DNA of 64,000 nucleotides from positions 1 to 64,000 of the forward strand of contig CAILEM010000090.1 of assembly GCA_903833215.1 (NCBI GenBank), in the 5' to 3' direction. The DNA comes from an uncultured Armatimonadota bacterium (GTDB lineage: Bacteria; Armatimonadota; Fimbriimonadia; Fimbriimonadales; Fimbriimonadaceae). Position 1 is the first letter of the stretch. Each line of letters opens with the position of its first letter. The notes below the pieces were generated by a model. The model had not been told where the DNA came from, did no database searches, and saw only the letters and a program-made list of their open reading frames with translations. Position numbers and translations under genes: made by a program. Shown piece by piece: positions 26,766-34,885 of the stretch.

Positions 26766-27350
26766 ATGGTTCTTTCACTTATTCTAGGCATTTCAATGTT
26801 GCAGTCCCAGGCCAAGCCAAGCGCCCTCGTTTGCCCGATGACCGCCGAAGAAGTTAGCGCTTCCTCCGCAAGCGTCGACTTCGCAGGAACCCGATATCAA
26901 ATGTGCTGCGGCGGTTGCCCAGACGAGTTCAAGAAGGATCCGACTGCGGCTCTCAAGTCCGACAAGCTCAAAGGCAAGACCGTCGGCACGTTCCTATTCG
27001 ATCCGATCAGCAACGCCCGAATCGAAGCAAAAGCAGCAAAAGGCGGTTCAGTGGACTATAAGGGAACTCGGTACCTCTTCGCGACCGCTGAAGAGAAAGC
27101 AACTTTCACTGCTGCTCCTGCCAAATTCGTGAAGAACCCTGAGAAGGAAGTTCTCTACTGCACCGTCGTTGGCCACGCGATCAAGAACTACGCGTCCGCC
27201 GGCGGCTACGTCGACATCAAAGGCACCCGGTACTACACCTGCTGCAAAGATTGCCTCGGCAAGTTGAAGGCTGATAACACGATCGCCGACAAGACTCCTG
27301 CCGATAAGGTCAAAAAGCCAGCCGTCATCGACGTTCCTGCCAGCCAGTAA
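26766..27350 (+). CDS. Secreted protein with three YHS-like repeats
   Basis: 194 aa with a short N-terminal signal peptide ending near QAKPS. Three units can be aligned: residues about 22-60 (CPM..GTRYQMCCGGCPDEF), 75-120 (FDPISNARI..GTRYLFATAEEKATF) and 128-170 (CTVVGHAI..GTRYYTCCKDCLGKL). Units 1 and 3 hold CC-x2-C clusters that could bind metal; unit 2 has lost all cysteines. YHS domains occur in copper/heavy-metal proteins, so a metal-binding role outside the membrane is plausible but unproven. TAGGAG ribosome site, TATAGT hexamer just upstream, terminator just downstream: likely monocistronic. Confidence 0.75.
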   Translation: MVLSLILGISMLQSQAKPSALVCPMTAEEVSASSASVDFAGTRYQMCCGGCPDEFKKDPTAALKSDKLKGKTVGTFLFDPISNARIEAKAAKGGSVDYKGTRYLFATAEEKATFTAAPAKFVKNPEKEVLYCTVVGHAIKNYASAGGYVDIKGTRYYTCCKDCLGKLKADNTIADKTPADKVKKPAVIDVPASQ

Positions 27351-28908: not shown

Positions 28909-28940
28909 GAGCCACCTTTCGCGATTGCGAAGGGTGGCTC
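28909..28940 (-). promoter_or_regulatory. Expression-platform hairpin
   Basis: Between the TPP aptamer and the pseudopilin start, an 8-bp stem (GAGCCACC / GGTGGCTC), one mismatch and five more pairs close an AATC loop, followed by TTTGCATTT. Its location and shape suit a terminator or ribosome-site sequester of the riboswitch, although the T-run is weak. Its core also resembles other interspersed palindromes here. Confidence 0.6.
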
Positions 28941-28960
28941 CAACATTGGAACTCGCTCTT

Positions 28961-29060
28961 CCACAATCCCTACACCGGTACTAACCGGATCAGGTTCATT
29001 GGGTCTTCCTCCAGCATCTTTGATGCCTTGGAACTCTCAGCCTTGCGGCTCCCCCTGCGG
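28961..29060 (-). ncRNA. TPP riboswitch (THI element)
   Basis: Reading the minus strand, all conserved parts are present in order: P1 CCGCA / TGTGG; GGGG before GCC-GCAA-GGC (P3 with a GNRA loop); CTGAGAG; an extra P3a hairpin (GCATC-AAA-GATGC); GACCC pairing back to GGGG; AACCTGATCCGG; the P5 arm CCGG-TTAGTA-CCGG; and TGTAGGGA. The aptamer core matches the thiamine pyrophosphate consensus without an obvious lesion. It normally represses thiamine synthesis or uptake genes, but here only a pseudopilin gene follows. Confidence 0.93.
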
Positions 29061-29078
29061 GCGACTCTTGCTCCCCTT

Positions 29079-29124: not shown

Positions 29125-30108
29125 CTAGCGCGTCCCCAGAACTTCAAACGAGAATCCGCGTTGTCGAAGTCCTTCGGTCATTTCAGATAGTGCCTCTAGC
29201 GTGACATCCACACCAGCATGGAGTTGAATGACGGCCCCTGGACACACCGCGGAGAGAACCCTGCGTAGAAGCTCGTTCCGTTTCGGACGCTGAAAGTCGT
29301 ACGGGTCCACAATCCGGTGGTGTGCCTTCTCACCCGAAATGACTTCGCTTCCAGGAGCACGGTAGAGCGAGGGCTCAAACCCTAGAGCCGACCTGAAAGC
29401 AGCTTTACATCGAACAAGTTGGGGATCGGAAGCATTGTGATCCCAGGAGTGGATTTGCAGCGAGTGCCCTTCGCGCAGTGCCCGCTTTAGCAAAGCAGAT
29501 TGTGATGCGACTCGATCTCCCATGCAGAATAGAGTGGCGTGGATGCCAAGCGCTCTCAGGCTATCGAGCATCTCTTCACCTCCTCGTTGCGGTGGAAAGT
29601 CATCGAAGGTTAGGAAGAGGGATCCCCCTGATGGTTTGCGAGCAAGCGCACCATGAACGGCATCGACGATATCTGTCGTGCGGATGACAGCACCGCTGGC
29701 GAATCGAACTTCGCCAGCGGTGTCGATTACGACAGTGGTTGGAACCCGGTCGACGCCCTGACCACGCGACCACGCACCTCCGCGATCCAGCCACAACGCC
29801 AAACCTTGATTGTGATTCGAAACTTCGGACCACCTACCATCGACGCTTACAGTGATGAACGCCACAGGAAGGCCAGCGGTGGCGCTACGGGCCGCGACGA
29901 GCCTTGGAACCTGTTGCTTCCACGTATCGCACCAATAGGCACAAAACGAAATCACTGTCACCTTGCCAGGAGTCCAGTCTTTTGGACTCCCGGTTGAGTC
30001 AGTAAGGTGGAAGGGTGACCAAATCACTCCAACTCGGGGATCAGCCGATGCGTGGCGGCATAGGATTGAGCAGAGTAGTCCAACGACCCAAGTGAGCCTA
30101 ACTCTCAC
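29125..30108 (-). CDS. Thioredoxin-fold and NodB polysaccharide deacetylase fusion, secreted
   Basis: 327 aa with a signal peptide (cleavage near residue 22). Residues about 30-155 form a TlpA/AhpC-like thioredoxin fold with VISFCAYWCDTW; the second active-site cysteine is replaced by W63, and RVPTTVVID carries the cis-proline. Residues about 160-327 are a NodB deacetylase with FLTFDD (catalytic D169, zinc ligand D170), H220-SWD-H224, LYRAPGS and IQLHAG. All five deacetylase motifs are recognisable, so the enzyme is probably active on a cell-surface polysaccharide. Its start overlaps the end of the macroglobulin gene by 4 bases. I know of no such fusion as a standard family. Confidence 0.82.
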   Translation of the reverse strand: MRVRLTWVVGLLCSILCRHASADPRVGVIWSPFHLTDSTGSPKDWTPGKVTVISFCAYWCDTWKQQVPRLVAARSATAGLPVAFITVSVDGRWSEVSNHNQGLALWLDRGGAWSRGQGVDRVPTTVVIDTAGEVRFASGAVIRTTDIVDAVHGALARKPSGGSLFLTFDDFPPQRGGEEMLDSLRALGIHATLFCMGDRVASQSALLKRALREGHSLQIHSWDHNASDPQLVRCKAAFRSALGFEPSLYRAPGSEVISGEKAHHRIVDPYDFQRPKRNELLRRVLSAVCPGAVIQLHAGVDVTLEALSEMTEGLRQRGFSFEVLGTR

Positions 30109-33100
30109 GGATGCACCAGAATGTATGAGGCCGAACTCCGTCCTCGCGTTGTGGGCCGGCGGAGATATTCGCCCGTCGCTGGAAGCGCGATCAGCCTGCC
30201 ATCTGATTCAGCCCGGATGTAGTACCGGAAGTACGTCGGCGTCCCGCTGTTCATCAAATAGTGAACGACGGCACCATCGCGAACTTCTTCTCTTGAGTAG
30301 CTCGTAAAGTCGGAATCGACATATTCGAAACCGGCAGGAATAGGTTCGGTGACCTTTAGGGCGTCAGAGATGTCATCGCCCCACACAACTACCGTGCAGC
30401 GAACCGGCTCACCGGGTTTGATTACCCCGTTGACTTCGGTCCAAACGCCAGCTTCATTTCGAACCTCGAACCTTCGAGTCACTCGGACGCCATAGGTGGA
30501 TTCGTTGAGCAAGGGGCGGTAGGAGCGTGCCTGAATCGTAAAGAGTGTTTCTCCATCACCAGACCGAAGAAGCTCGAATGTGTTGGTTCCTCCATGAAGA
30601 ATGAAGTCTCGAACTTCGACGGAAGCACTTTGGTCAACCGTCGATGGAGTCAATGAGTAGACATGACCGTTGATCGAAACCTTCGCATCTCCTATCGACT
30701 TGCTGTCTGGGTGCTCCCGACCGTATAGGGACAATGCTCGAACGATTCCAGCAGTGTCCTCGGCACAGCGGTAGTAGTCCTTCTCAGGCACGGCGAGTCG
30801 TCGGGCAAGCTTGGTTTGCAGGCTCGAATGCTCGTTCATCAAGCACAAGACGGTGAGAAGCTCGGCCGTCGTCTCGGTATCCGAGGCACTCCAGCCGATG
30901 CCAAATCCAACTGGAACGTATGCGGAGGCGGGGCCATCCGACACGAGCTTTAGCACGTTTTCGACGTACTGAGATGCTCGACCCGAATCCTTGCCAACCA
31001 GAACCTCTGCGAGGCGCAGTTTTGCGAAAGGTGACAACTTCATGCCGCGAGTCACAACCTCATCGACGTAAGAAGGTGCGATCGGAGCACCCAGCGCTCG
31101 AAGGGATGCTGCGAGTCGAGCACGATCCTCCCACAGGTTTGTGCGTTGATACATAGTTGTGCAGCCGGAGACTGCGGCATTCTTCATGCTGGGAAAAACT
31201 CGGTATCCATGGGCCTCGGCGAGAGCGAGTGCATAGCCGACTTCTGCAGTGATCTTGGCATCTGCTGGTGCGCCTTCCCACCAACCCCATCCATCGTAGA
31301 GTTGATCCCGAGACAACAGGGCGAGTGCTTCCCTAACGTCGTCACTGTTTTTGGGTGCATTGATCGCAACGGCGGCTTTCAATGCATTGACGGCCCACAT
31401 CGTGCCGTAGCGACCGCCAGCGAGAAGGCGGTTTGCCGATTCTCGTGCGGTCGCCTGGATTCCACCCGAGATGCGAACAGTGATCAACGACCCTGAGCTG
31501 ATCGTGTCAGCCGCAAGTTGAATCTTGGTGGACTGCCTCTTGGCGAGCGATCCTCCAATCAACGTCGTCTCGGCCACTCCCCGAGGAACGACAGGTACGG
31601 AAATGGCGAGCGCATCCCCGAAGTCAGGATCGGTACTTCCGATGGCGCCGACACGAGCTGTCAGTTTTGCGAAGCCACTCTTTGGCACGTCCGTGACGTT
31701 GAGATTCCAATGCACTTTGGCTTCGCTGTGCGCCTTCACTTCCACTTCTTGCTTTGCAGCGTTGAGGATGCTGAGACCTTCGGCGCGAATGTTAACCTCG
31801 AATCTTCGTGTCTCAGCACTGCGATTATTGATCGTTCCAATCAAGGTCAGGAGGTCACTCTGGGCTAACAGGCGCGGCGTGGCCAGGCGAAGTGTCACGG
31901 GTCGAGTTGCGGTGACATTGGACACGCCAGAGCCAACGCGAGTGTCGCCAGTAACTGCGCGACCCGTGGCTCTCCAAGATGTCAGATTCCCAGGCATCTC
32001 AAATGAAACCAGCCCATTACCGCTCGCATCGGTCTTGACGAAGGCGTTCCAATACGCGGTGTCTTCAAATCGCTGACGGACGGGGGCGACGCTACTCACA
32101 TTTTGGAAAGCACCCCCTGCGAGTTCCTCTGGAGCCGATTGAAACGATTGGACATTATCCCCGCGGATGCCCCAATAGTAGGAATATGGGTCGGGCGTAA
32201 TGTCCTGGCTCAGCGCGTAGATCGCTTCATCTACAACCGACACTGCCACCTCCGCCGGAACGCCATGCCCGTCTTGATCGAGGGTACGAACACGATAGGT
32301 TGCCTTCTCGCCCGGTTTGTATTCCGATTTGGTGGCTTTGACTTCCACATTCAGCAAGCGCTTCTTATCAGGCAGTGGTACGACCGCGCTCCCGGACAAC
32401 ATCCCAGTCTCAGACCACTGGTTGATCGTGACGTAGCCATTAGGAGATTGCTGCGCTGAAGTCTCCACCGTCCACATTCCGATCGGTTTGTGGGACTGGA
32501 CGACCTTGTAGTTCCAGATGTCTCCGCCCGAGTACACGAACAGAATCGGATACTTGGGTCGGTTTGTCAGGGCGTAAGCACGAAGCTGTTGACCCGGCGC
32601 ATACACTCTTTTGTCGAGCTTGATCTCCAGGCTCGCCCCTTCTTTCACTTTCTCAGGCTTGTAGTCGAGTCCAGCTACCCATATCGGCTCAGATGCCCGC
32701 GCCTTGCGGCCAGTTTCATCGGTTGTTTCGGCGTGGATTGTAAGATTGCCATACGCTGATGCAGGCATGTTTACTGCCAAAACTCCAGTCGTCGGGACAC
32801 TGACTTCTTTCCGAGAAAGAACCTTGGGTCTGAATTCCGCTTTCTTCTCATCCCACACCTGGGTAACAACCTGGAGCCGTACTTTGCCGGACTTCGGTCG
32901 ACCATCAAGGTCCACCAAGCGGACTTGCATCGGAACTAGGTCGCCAACCGCGACCGTCTGTCGGAGGCACGTGAGCCCAAGCCGAACGAGGGCCGGATAG
33001 ACCGGGACTGAAGTTCCTCCCGTGACTTGACGCCTAGAGCCATCAATCACGGTCAGGCTGATCGAGTAGGTTGAATCTTGTGCCTCTGGGTCACTGTGGA

Positions 33101-34355
33101 TCCGGATGTCGAGGTGCCCCTTGTTATCCGTGACACCTTCACCGTCGGCCGCAAAAGGCGACGAAGCATAGGTGTCGCGCGGGTACATGTTGCCGTCGCC
33201 GCCGTAAAACCAACGATCTTCAGGGGTACTCCACCTATAAGGCGAGTTCGAGCGGCGAACAATCCAGTGCACGCTTGCTTGAGGGACAGGAGCGCCGAAG
33301 TAGTAGTTGGCATCCACGTCGAAATGGAGGTCTTCTCCGCTTAGGTACCGACGCTGTTTGGGTTTAGAGTCAACTTTGTATTCGGGCTTTCGGTAGGCAG
33401 CAACGGTGAAGGTCTGGTACGCACTCTGCTGCCCGTAGGTGAGAACGACGGAATAAGCTCCAAGCATCCCCTCTTGTGGGATTTTGAAAGAACCGGCGAC
33501 ACTTCCAATATCATTCGTCTTGAGCGTTACTTGCTCCAAGGGGTTATCGCGTGGATCGCGTAACTGAATGCCGATGTCGGCGTTGCGGACGTCATCGTAT
33601 AGCTGGTCATGTGTCAGCCGAAGGATCGCCTTGAACGAGATCGACTGCCCGGGCCGGTAGATCGGGCGGTCGGTTTGAAACAGGCACTTCAAGAATCCAT
33701 TTGGGCTCTGTGCCCCAACACCGAGACCGGCCAACTCATCCTTTGCCTGAACGACAACGTTATCTTGCGAGGGTGGCATGCTTATCAGCGCCGTCCCGTC
33801 TTCACCCGTTCTGGAGGTAATTCGCAGGTTGCCTTTTGAATCAAAGAAGCTGATTTTGGCCCCTTTGACAACTGCTCCTGATTTGAACTCTGTCACCCAG
33901 ACGAGTGCGCGCTTATGCGAGCGCTTTACAACAAATGAGAGGTTTGTTACGTTCACGACCGCCCAAGCTTGCTTGCCTCCGGCTGCGAGAGCTAGCAGGT
34001 AGACACCTGCTTTCATAGGGGGCAGATTCACCTGCCGAGAGAAATAGTTGTCTTTTGGATCGAGGTACTGGTCTCGCTTCGCGATCGTCAAGTCAAACTG
34101 CGCGCTTGGGTTGCCTTGTCCAGCAGGGCGCTTGTTCCAATCGTCAGGATGAGTTAGCCACTTCAGGCCATCAATCGGATAGCAGTTGACGTGAACAATC
34201 GGGATGTTGCGGGTATTGATGTTCAAACGAATCTTTGAACTTGGGGCGACGTTTTGAGACACCCAAACCTGCAGGTCTTTCGGAAAACTTGGCTTTTCGG
34301 CTTGAACACCCAAAAGCGCGATCGCAAAACATAAAACGGGAATCATCCTCGGCAC
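30105..34355 (-). CDS. Alpha-2-macroglobulin family protein lacking the thioester
   Basis: 1416 aa with a signal peptide (MPRMIPVLCFAIALLGVQA). MG1-like strands follow, an MG2 domain with TDRPIYRPGQSISFK near residue 230, several macroglobulin repeats, and the A2M core with DTAYWNAFVKTDASG near residue 765 and LTSWRATGRAVTGDT. Bacterial A2Ms trap proteases in the periplasm. In the thioester domain the place of CxEQ reads AGGRYGTMWAVN near residue 978, so covalent trapping is unlikely. No penicillin-binding protein 1C gene is adjacent, unlike the classical yfhM-pbpC pair. Overlaps both neighbours (13 and 4 bases). Confidence 0.88.
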   Translation of the reverse strand: MPRMIPVLCFAIALLGVQAEKPSFPKDLQVWVSQNVAPSSKIRLNINTRNIPIVHVNCYPIDGLKWLTHPDDWNKRPAGQGNPSAQFDLTIAKRDQYLDPKDNYFSRQVNLPPMKAGVYLLALAAGGKQAWAVVNVTNLSFVVKRSHKRALVWVTEFKSGAVVKGAKISFFDSKGNLRITSRTGEDGTALISMPPSQDNVVVQAKDELAGLGVGAQSPNGFLKCLFQTDRPIYRPGQSISFKAILRLTHDQLYDDVRNADIGIQLRDPRDNPLEQVTLKTNDIGSVAGSFKIPQEGMLGAYSVVLTYGQQSAYQTFTVAAYRKPEYKVDSKPKQRRYLSGEDLHFDVDANYYFGAPVPQASVHWIVRRSNSPYRWSTPEDRWFYGGDGNMYPRDTYASSPFAADGEGVTDNKGHLDIRIHSDPEAQDSTYSISLTVIDGSRRQVTGGTSVPVYPALVRLGLTCLRQTVAVGDLVPMQVRLVDLDGRPKSGKVRLQVVTQVWDEKKAEFRPKVLSRKEVSVPTTGVLAVNMPASAYGNLTIHAETTDETGRKARASEPIWVAGLDYKPEKVKEGASLEIKLDKRVYAPGQQLRAYALTNRPKYPILFVYSGGDIWNYKVVQSHKPIGMWTVETSAQQSPNGYVTINQWSETGMLSGSAVVPLPDKKRLLNVEVKATKSEYKPGEKATYRVRTLDQDGHGVPAEVAVSVVDEAIYALSQDITPDPYSYYWGIRGDNVQSFQSAPEELAGGAFQNVSSVAPVRQRFEDTAYWNAFVKTDASGNGLVSFEMPGNLTSWRATGRAVTGDTRVGSGVSNVTATRPVTLRLATPRLLAQSDLLTLIGTINNRSAETRRFEVNIRAEGLSILNAAKQEVEVKAHSEAKVHWNLNVTDVPKSGFAKLTARVGAIGSTDPDFGDALAISVPVVPRGVAETTLIGGSLAKRQSTKIQLAADTISSGSLITVRISGGIQATARESANRLLAGGRYGTMWAVNALKAAVAINAPKNSDDVREALALLSRDQLYDGWGWWEGAPADAKITAEVGYALALAEAHGYRVFPSMKNAAVSGCTTMYQRTNLWEDRARLAASLRALGAPIAPSYVDEVVTRGMKLSPFAKLRLAEVLVGKDSGRASQYVENVLKLVSDGPASAYVPVGFGIGWSASDTETTAELLTVLCLMNEHSSLQTKLARRLAVPEKDYYRCAEDTAGIVRALSLYGREHPDSKSIGDAKVSINGHVYSLTPSTVDQSASVEVRDFILHGGTNTFELLRSGDGETLFTIQARSYRPLLNESTYGVRVTRRFEVRNEAGVWTEVNGVIKPGEPVRCTVVVWGDDISDALKVTEPIPAGFEYVDSDFTSYSREEVRDGAVVHYLMNSGTPTYFRYYIRAESDGRLIALPATGEYLRRPTTRGRSSASYILVHP

Positions 34356-34885
34356 CTCGATGCAGTCAATCGGAATAGCGTCACAGCAGAGTTTTCAGGA
34401 ACTCCAGCTTTTTTGAATGCCCACTTCAGCCTCAACTGCGGGTCTTTTCCTTCCCAAGGCAAAACAATGCCTTTCTTGTTTCCCGCCTGAAGCACAAGCC
34501 CATCGGACGGCAGCAGCCCATCCACTGAAGACATGGGATCAAGCTTGGATACAACCGTCACCGTTACAAGGAACCCCTGGAGGTCGGTGAGTTTGAGAGG
34601 ACCGTATCGAGGGTCATGCGCCGCGGCTGCTCGCGCTGCCAACACCACTTCGTCCTCCACAGACGCGGTTCTGGATGTCAGATCCCCTCGACAACCAATG
34701 ACCTTGCCATTTCGCTCGATGGTGACAAAAACAGCCTTTGCTCCGGTGTGGACCTTAGGTCTGGGAGGTTCTAGGTGTCTCACTTCAGATTCGACTGCCT
34801 GTCTGGCAAGGTCCACTAGCACCTGTTGATCTTTGGGAACCGTCTGTCCGCATCCCATGGCGAGCGTTAACGCGTAAATCAGCAT
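34343..34885 (-). CDS. AMMECR1-domain protein, probably exported
   Basis: 180 aa. Hydrophobic N-terminus MLIYALTLAMGCGQ looks like a short lipoprotein signal, although it lacks the usual basic residues. The rest matches the AMMECR1 fold: AVFVTIERNGKVIGCRGDL (family signature normally LRGCIG) near residue 50, ARAAAAHDPRYGPL and a strand-rich C-terminus. AMMECR1 proteins are usually cytosolic and partner Memo and radical SAM proteins; none of those are here. First gene of the operon with the macroglobulin and deacetylase fusion. Biochemical role unknown. Confidence 0.75.
   Translation of the reverse strand: MLIYALTLAMGCGQTVPKDQQVLVDLARQAVESEVRHLEPPRPKVHTGAKAVFVTIERNGKVIGCRGDLTSRTASVEDEVVLAARAAAAHDPRYGPLKLTDLQGFLVTVTVVSKLDPMSSVDGLLPSDGLVLQAGNKKGIVLPWEGKDPQLRLKWAFKKAGVPENSAVTLFRLTASRCRG

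Follow-up and report, generated by a model that had tools for sequence, protein, structure and literature searches.

The window analyzed here is a 64,000-nt stretch of contig CAILEM010000090.1 from an uncultured Armatimonadota bacterium of the family Fimbriimonadaceae. On its minus strand, three open reading frames (ORFs) that encode an AMMECR1-domain protein, an alpha-2-macroglobulin-like protein, and a redoxin-deacetylase fusion lie head to tail, and an ORF check showed their coordinates to be exact. AMMECR1 proteins form a conserved, universal family of unknown function, and alpha-2-macroglobulin (A2M) is the protease trap of human blood. The gene set was found to recur across the little-studied phylum Armatimonadota, and its recurring core is an exported AMMECR1 protein, a macroglobulin, and a redoxin with the active-site motif W-C-x-T-W.

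Recurrence and co-inheritance of the module

The near search covered 61 relatives and all 113 genomes of the order. The three genes, in the same order and on the same strand, were present in exactly 10 of the 113 genomes, and full-length orthologues of the AMMECR1, macroglobulin, and fusion proteins occurred in these same 10 genomes and in no other. Nine of them are from the window's genus, of which 20 species were sampled, and the tenth represents another genus of the same family. The flanking genes differ among the ten loci, apart from a few common to the window, G012, and G004 (codes with f, G, and L denote families, genomes, and loci; G000 is the window genome). Within the window's genus, the species with the module have genomes of 3.8 to 6.5 Mb, compared to 2.6 to 3.5 Mb for those without it (one exception, 4.9 Mb).

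A phylum-wide search of 291 Armatimonadota genomes and fetched neighborhoods yielded 28 loci, of which almost all are complete, and a further 4 fragments lying at contig ends. They are spread over 12 families (f1, f10, f11, f12, f13, f16, f19, f37, f40, f42, f43, and f44), and the count is a lower limit, as only part of the candidate neighborhoods was opened. It includes G250, in which the AMMECR1 start was lost at a contig edge, and G017, in which the macroglobulin is split into two frames. The W-C-x-T-W DNA pattern is unspecific alone (found in 84 of the 291 genomes, with controls of similar order) and was counted only beside a macroglobulin. The genes run in the order AMMECR1, macroglobulin, redoxin everywhere except in f19, where the order is macroglobulin, fusion, AMMECR1, and in most loci they overlap or lie a few bases apart. 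Two genomes, G208 and G235, carry an exported AMMECR1 protein and a macroglobulin without the one-cysteine redoxin. The whole-genome searches were centered on Armatimonadota. To look further afield, genome contigs were scanned with the AMMECR1 alignment under strict patterns, and all records matched were from Armatimonadota or from unnamed bacteria; a plasmid search gave a single match, an ordinary AmmeMemoRadiSam. A preliminary description of this DNA had named a gene order found only here as the outcome that would count against a conserved operon. The order is instead kept within the genus, in one other genus, and in further Armatimonadota families. A conserved, macroglobulin-centered operon of exported proteins is supported.

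The pairwise distances of the three gene trees are strongly correlated (r = 0.94, 0.88, and 0.96; maximum of 2,000 permutations, 0.41). Shared species history adds to these values, so they show co-inheritance and not interaction. All three genes, and both halves of the fusion, are under purifying selection, with pN/pS ratios of 0.28 to 0.51 by the Nei-Gojobori method and with synonymous sites nearly saturated.

Gene junctions, export signals, and conserved residues

The AMMECR1 gene (34343 to 34885; 180 amino acids [aa]) ends within the start of the macroglobulin gene (30105 to 34346; 1,413 aa from its ATG), which in turn overlaps the fusion gene (29125 to 30108; 327 aa); these and all other coordinates of the module are on the minus strand. 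The preliminary description gave overlaps of 13 and 4 bases. The second is correct, the macroglobulin stop and the GTG start of the fusion sharing 30105 to 30108. The first reaches 13 bases only if the macroglobulin begins at an alternative GTG at 34355 (ORF 30105 to 34355; 1,416 aa). An ATG 9 bases further on gives a 4-base ATGA overlap with the AMMECR1 stop (34343 to 34346), and this junction is probably the true one because the relatives have a homologous ATG start and most overlap by 4 or 1 bases. From the overlaps we infer that the three genes are cotranscribed. Scans for promoters and terminators gave signal at background level only.

Export signals were ascribed earlier to all three proteins. 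This holds for the fusion, which has a good signal peptide, and is less secure for the other two. The N terminus of the AMMECR1 protein (MLIYALTLAMGCGQ...) has a short, uncharged, hydrophobic start and the protein is probably exported, and the macroglobulins of the window's lineage begin in the same manner. Most relatives from other families have ordinary signals. Short hydrophobic export signals without positive charge, such as MVLSLILGISMLQSQA, are frequent in this lineage and were seen at window position 26766, in the ORFs at 34343 to 34885 and 30105 to 34346, and in relatives; standard predictors may miss these.

The AMMECR1 gene is single copy, being the only match over the cutoff in a whole-genome scan. 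Its product belongs to the AMMECR1 family by both fold (Pfam PF01871, 6.4e-22) and conserved cysteine motif, and its AlphaFold2 model (pLDDT 91) matched solely the AMMECR1 structures 1vaj, 1zq7, and 1wsc, all of unknown function. The motif, canonically RGCIG, is GCRG here (residues 64 to 67; 34685 to 34696) and contains Cys65, which is invariant in all 27 aligned module copies. Phe53, Gly67, Asp91, Arg93, Gly129, Gly139, Leu142, Glu145, Trp155, and Arg177 are likewise present in 27 of 27. Among exported AMMECR1 proteins the motif varies, from GCRG in f1 to RCCMG in f42 to f44 and their kin (L142, L150 to L159, L177 to L179, and L183), and the second cysteine of RCC occurs in 13 of the 27 copies. 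The deep nodes of the AMMECR1 tree are weak, and a single origin of all exported AMMECR1 proteins is neither supported nor rejected by it. One locus, L073 (G175, f17), has an exported AMMECR1 gene alone, without an adjoining macroglobulin or redoxin; about 5.4 kb upstream of it, on the same strand, lies a Memo gene. The archaeal form, arCOG01336, is on a list of top-priority uncharacterized proteins (PMC6393860).

The N-terminal half of the fusion gave a weak thioredoxin-like Pfam match around the cutoff, and in the AlphaFold2 model (pLDDT 87.8) it matches ResA-type redoxins (TMt about 0.8). Its active-site motif is WCDTWK (residues 59 to 64; 29917 to 29934), in which the second cysteine of CXXC is replaced by Trp. 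W-C-x-T-W is kept in 28 of 28 redoxin copies; the second cysteine is never present, and a proline (P123) is conserved. Redoxin Cys60 (28/28) and AMMECR1 Cys65 are the only invariant cysteines of the module. The C-terminal half is a NodB-type (CE4) polysaccharide deacetylase (29143 to 29637; Polysacc_deac_1, 3e-16), and its model matches deacetylases of the PgdA/PdaC type. The motifs TFDD (29596 to 29610), HxxxH (29437 to 29451), RxPG (29350 to 29361), and LHAG (29212 to 29223) are all kept, and this CE4/NodB motif set (TFDD, HxxxH, RxPG, LHxG) is present in the window and in 12 of the 13 fusions. It is lost in G017, where FDG stands for FDD and the HxxxH region is deleted, so that the metal site is gone. 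The redoxin motif and the AMMECR1 protein of G017 are intact, suggesting that the module can dispense with its deacetylase; caution is needed because the locus (L060), with its macroglobulin in two frames, may be a decaying or repurposed copy or may partly reflect sequencing error. The redoxin is fused to NodB in 4 of the 12 families (f1, f10, f16, and f19) and unfused in f11, f12, f13, f37, f40, and f42 to f44.

The macroglobulin has the domains of bacterial A2Ms in order, MG2 (33402 to 33683), bait region (A2M_BRD; 32211 to 32630), and A2M (31791 to 32060), all of which scored over the Pfam cutoff, as did bMG10. Its profile matches the structures of human A2M, Salmonella A2M, E. coli A2M, and CD109. 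An active thioester in this copy was rejected: the alignment of 27 copies shows a 9-column deletion at the site, leaving GRYGTMWA (31392 to 31415) where relatives have YPYGC(A/T)EQT. The same deletion is found in 11 copies from f1, f10, and f16; in G133 the thioester cysteine is replaced by Asp; and CXEQ is kept in 15 of the 27, all from families other than f1, f10, and f16. No cysteine is invariant among the 27 macroglobulins. Probably the ancestor had the thioester, and the lineage of the window lost it. The simplest history, which does not draw on a rooted species tree, would be at least two losses of an ancestral thioester, with the deacetylase fused later and before the loss in f1, f10, and f16; f19 has both fusion and thioester. 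A second, larger macroglobulin (about 1,550 to 1,660 aa) is also common across the phylum, with CXEQ in most copies seen (L161, L164, L165, and L167). It is followed by a gene with a VanW domain (Pfam) in L161 and L165 and by similar-looking genes in L164 and L167, and a single copy of this macroglobulin lies in the window genome (G000:C82).

Next to the module, a TPP riboswitch aptamer lies at 28949 to 29065 on the minus strand (56.5 bits against a gathering threshold of 54.3), the sole one over the cutoff in the genome. It directly precedes a gene for a type IV pilin-like protein (N_methyl) that starts at about 28886, an odd pairing, and near it are a G+C-rich hairpin (28909 to 28940) and an upstream TATAAT.

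Possible functions of the module

The reading that we favor, with somewhat less than even confidence, is an envelope-defense complex that would work like MagD of Pseudomonas with two new dedicated partners. The thioester-less MagD of P. aeruginosa traps protease noncovalently, depends on its operon partners, and forms complexes with them (PMC5764988). In addition, magD protects against wall-targeting effectors of the type VI secretion system (PMC12663445). The function of type II bacterial macroglobulin has been called unclear (PMC12663445). By analogy, the macroglobulin would be the center of the module, folded either periplasmically or on the cell surface and responding when its bait region undergoes hostile cleavage. 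Trapping would be covalent, via the thioester, in most families; the thioester is lost in the window species, so any trapping there would be noncovalent. The exported AMMECR1 protein and the one-cysteine redoxin would be dedicated partners of the macroglobulin, with the lone nucleophilic cysteine of the redoxin most likely engaged in a mixed disulfide with the invariant AMMECR1 cysteine, holding or protecting it rather than cycling as a reductase. The thioester cysteine, where present, could also be a partner in such a disulfide. The fused NodB domain, seen in Fimbriimonadaceae and three other families, may remove acetyl groups from N-acetyl sugars in the wall or matrix nearby and thereby make lysozyme-like cutting harder, and a module with NodB would then guard against wall hydrolases as well as proteases.

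Several observations weigh against such a complex. The redoxin is unchanged where the thioester is lost and therefore cannot serve the thioester alone. No signal peptide is visible on the f10 fusion or on the f19 AMMECR1 and fusion proteins, so a fully exported complex is hard to reconcile with these families. The pairing of the lone cysteines is a guess from their conservation, and housekeeping roles in the envelope fit the same facts. The cell-surface function first suggested for these genes had joined polysaccharide trimming, redox chemistry, and protease defense. Defense is plausible by analogy, with the qualification that the window macroglobulin lacks a thioester. Trimming applies to the 4 families with a fused NodB and is not part of the core, and even there the catalytic site was lost once, in G017. 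As for redox chemistry, every copy has Trp in place of the resolving cysteine of CXXC, which makes it doubtful. A further reading, in our view possible but rather doubtful, is that the module is an undescribed phylum-level complex of the envelope. In it, a thiol partnership between the one-cysteine redoxin and an exported AMMECR1 protein would control a macroglobulin trap, and the universal AMMECR1 domain would have a role outside Memo and radical-SAM proteins.

The strongest rival is housekeeping envelope biogenesis, to which we give a likelihood well short of even. The macroglobulin would then be a large scaffold, or a tether that changes shape, for wall, surface-layer, or outer-membrane protein assembly, the AMMECR1 protein and the redoxin would be folding or modification factors, and defense would play no part. 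The conservation of all parts under purifying selection and the dispensable thioester are consistent with this, as are the wall-linked neighbors of other macroglobulins, VanW genes for the larger type described above and PBP1c for type I A2Ms elsewhere (PMC5764988). However, the patchy presence of the module, in 9 of 20 sampled species of the genus and one further genome of the family, fits an accessory trait better than an essential function, and the bait-region domain has been kept. An improbable alternative is that AMMECR1 is itself a working, exported, cysteine-dependent enzyme with an envelope or matrix substrate, whose cysteine the redoxin keeps reduced while the macroglobulin shields or presents the pair. 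AMMECR1 is normally cytoplasmic, so export would demand thiol protection; Cys65, Asp91, Arg93, Glu145, Trp155, and Arg177 are invariant in the 27 copies, and the pair of cysteines is the invariant part of the module. Yet AMMECR1 proteins have no known activity, the structural matches are all to proteins of unknown function, and a redoxin without its second cysteine cannot finish an ordinary thiol-disulfide cycle.

The two partners might instead act on the macroglobulin's internal thioester, forming or guarding it, an idea that we consider very unlikely. Other A2Ms are known to make their thioesters without partners of this kind. Both partners accompany the macroglobulin in all copies, including the 15 with CXEQ, but they also persist under purifying selection beside the 11 thioester-deleted copies of f1, f10, and f16 and in G133 (Cys to Asp). 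Finally, three envelope genes might have come together by chance or be linked passively, and the permuted order in f19 speaks for this. Against it stand the spread of the 28 loci over 12 families, with flanks that vary, the translational overlaps, the shared pattern of presence and absence, and agreement among the trees. Chance overlap or association was rejected, as the recurrence is far beyond chance, and for practical purposes the data refute this explanation.

The module offers a new place to find the function of AMMECR1, which is exported here, free of Memo, and tied to two partners, and whose role is approachable by pull-down and by mutation of one cysteine. Copies with and without a thioester in an otherwise identical operon amount to a natural experiment on the purpose of the thioester.

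Comparison with known systems

Neither AMMECR1 joined with a bacterial macroglobulin nor any macroglobulin of Armatimonadota was found in the literature searched, a coverage that mostly excludes subscription journals; this agrees with the earlier statement that no described system combines these parts. Individually, the parts resemble known proteins. The redoxin shares the fold, the N-terminal active-site cysteine, and the conserved proline (P123) of the ResA/TlpA thiol-disulfide oxidoreductases, but lacks their CXXC pair, having Trp for the second cysteine in every copy. The deacetylase has the NodB fold of the PgdA/PdaC-type CE4 peptidoglycan deacetylases, and 12 of the 13 fusions have their D-H-H metal motif, but it is fused behind a one-cysteine redoxin.

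The AMMECR1 protein has the PF01871 domain and conserved cysteine motif of AmmeMemoRadiSam. Unlike that system, the module's AMMECR1 is exported, and it scores 72 bits against a cutoff of 99 for the NCBIfam family AmmeMemoSam_A. No Memo gene was found in the window genome or in the 11 other module genomes of f1, f10, and f16; in those of f19 and f37 to f44, Memo is encoded far away or on other contigs. Linkage to Memo and radical-SAM genes was therefore rejected, and the module is independent of the Memo system.

The type I A2Ms of the E. coli YfhM and Salmonella A2M kind, which accompany PBP1c, are similar in having a cell-wall link and in the thioester that the copies of f11 to f13, f19, and f37 to f44 retain. 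The partners of the module differ from theirs, and neither the window copy nor any copy of f1, f10, or f16 has CXEQ. No large PBP1c-like neighbor was noticed in the ORF listings, and no scan of the neighbors for PBP domains was made. The closest likeness is to the mag operon (magABCDEF of P. aeruginosa; the E. coli yfaS type), in which an operon-borne, thioester-less macroglobulin with a bait region likewise has dedicated exported partners. The window copy shares the missing thioester and the bait region of these type II A2Ms (MagD/YfaS) and is without mag-type partner genes, since none of MagA, MagB, MagC, MagE, and MagF is described as an AMMECR1 protein, a redoxin, or a deacetylase (PMC5764988). 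The module is thus not a mag operon, because its partners differ, and with CXEQ kept in most of the Armatimonadota copies, it cuts across the division between type I and type II.

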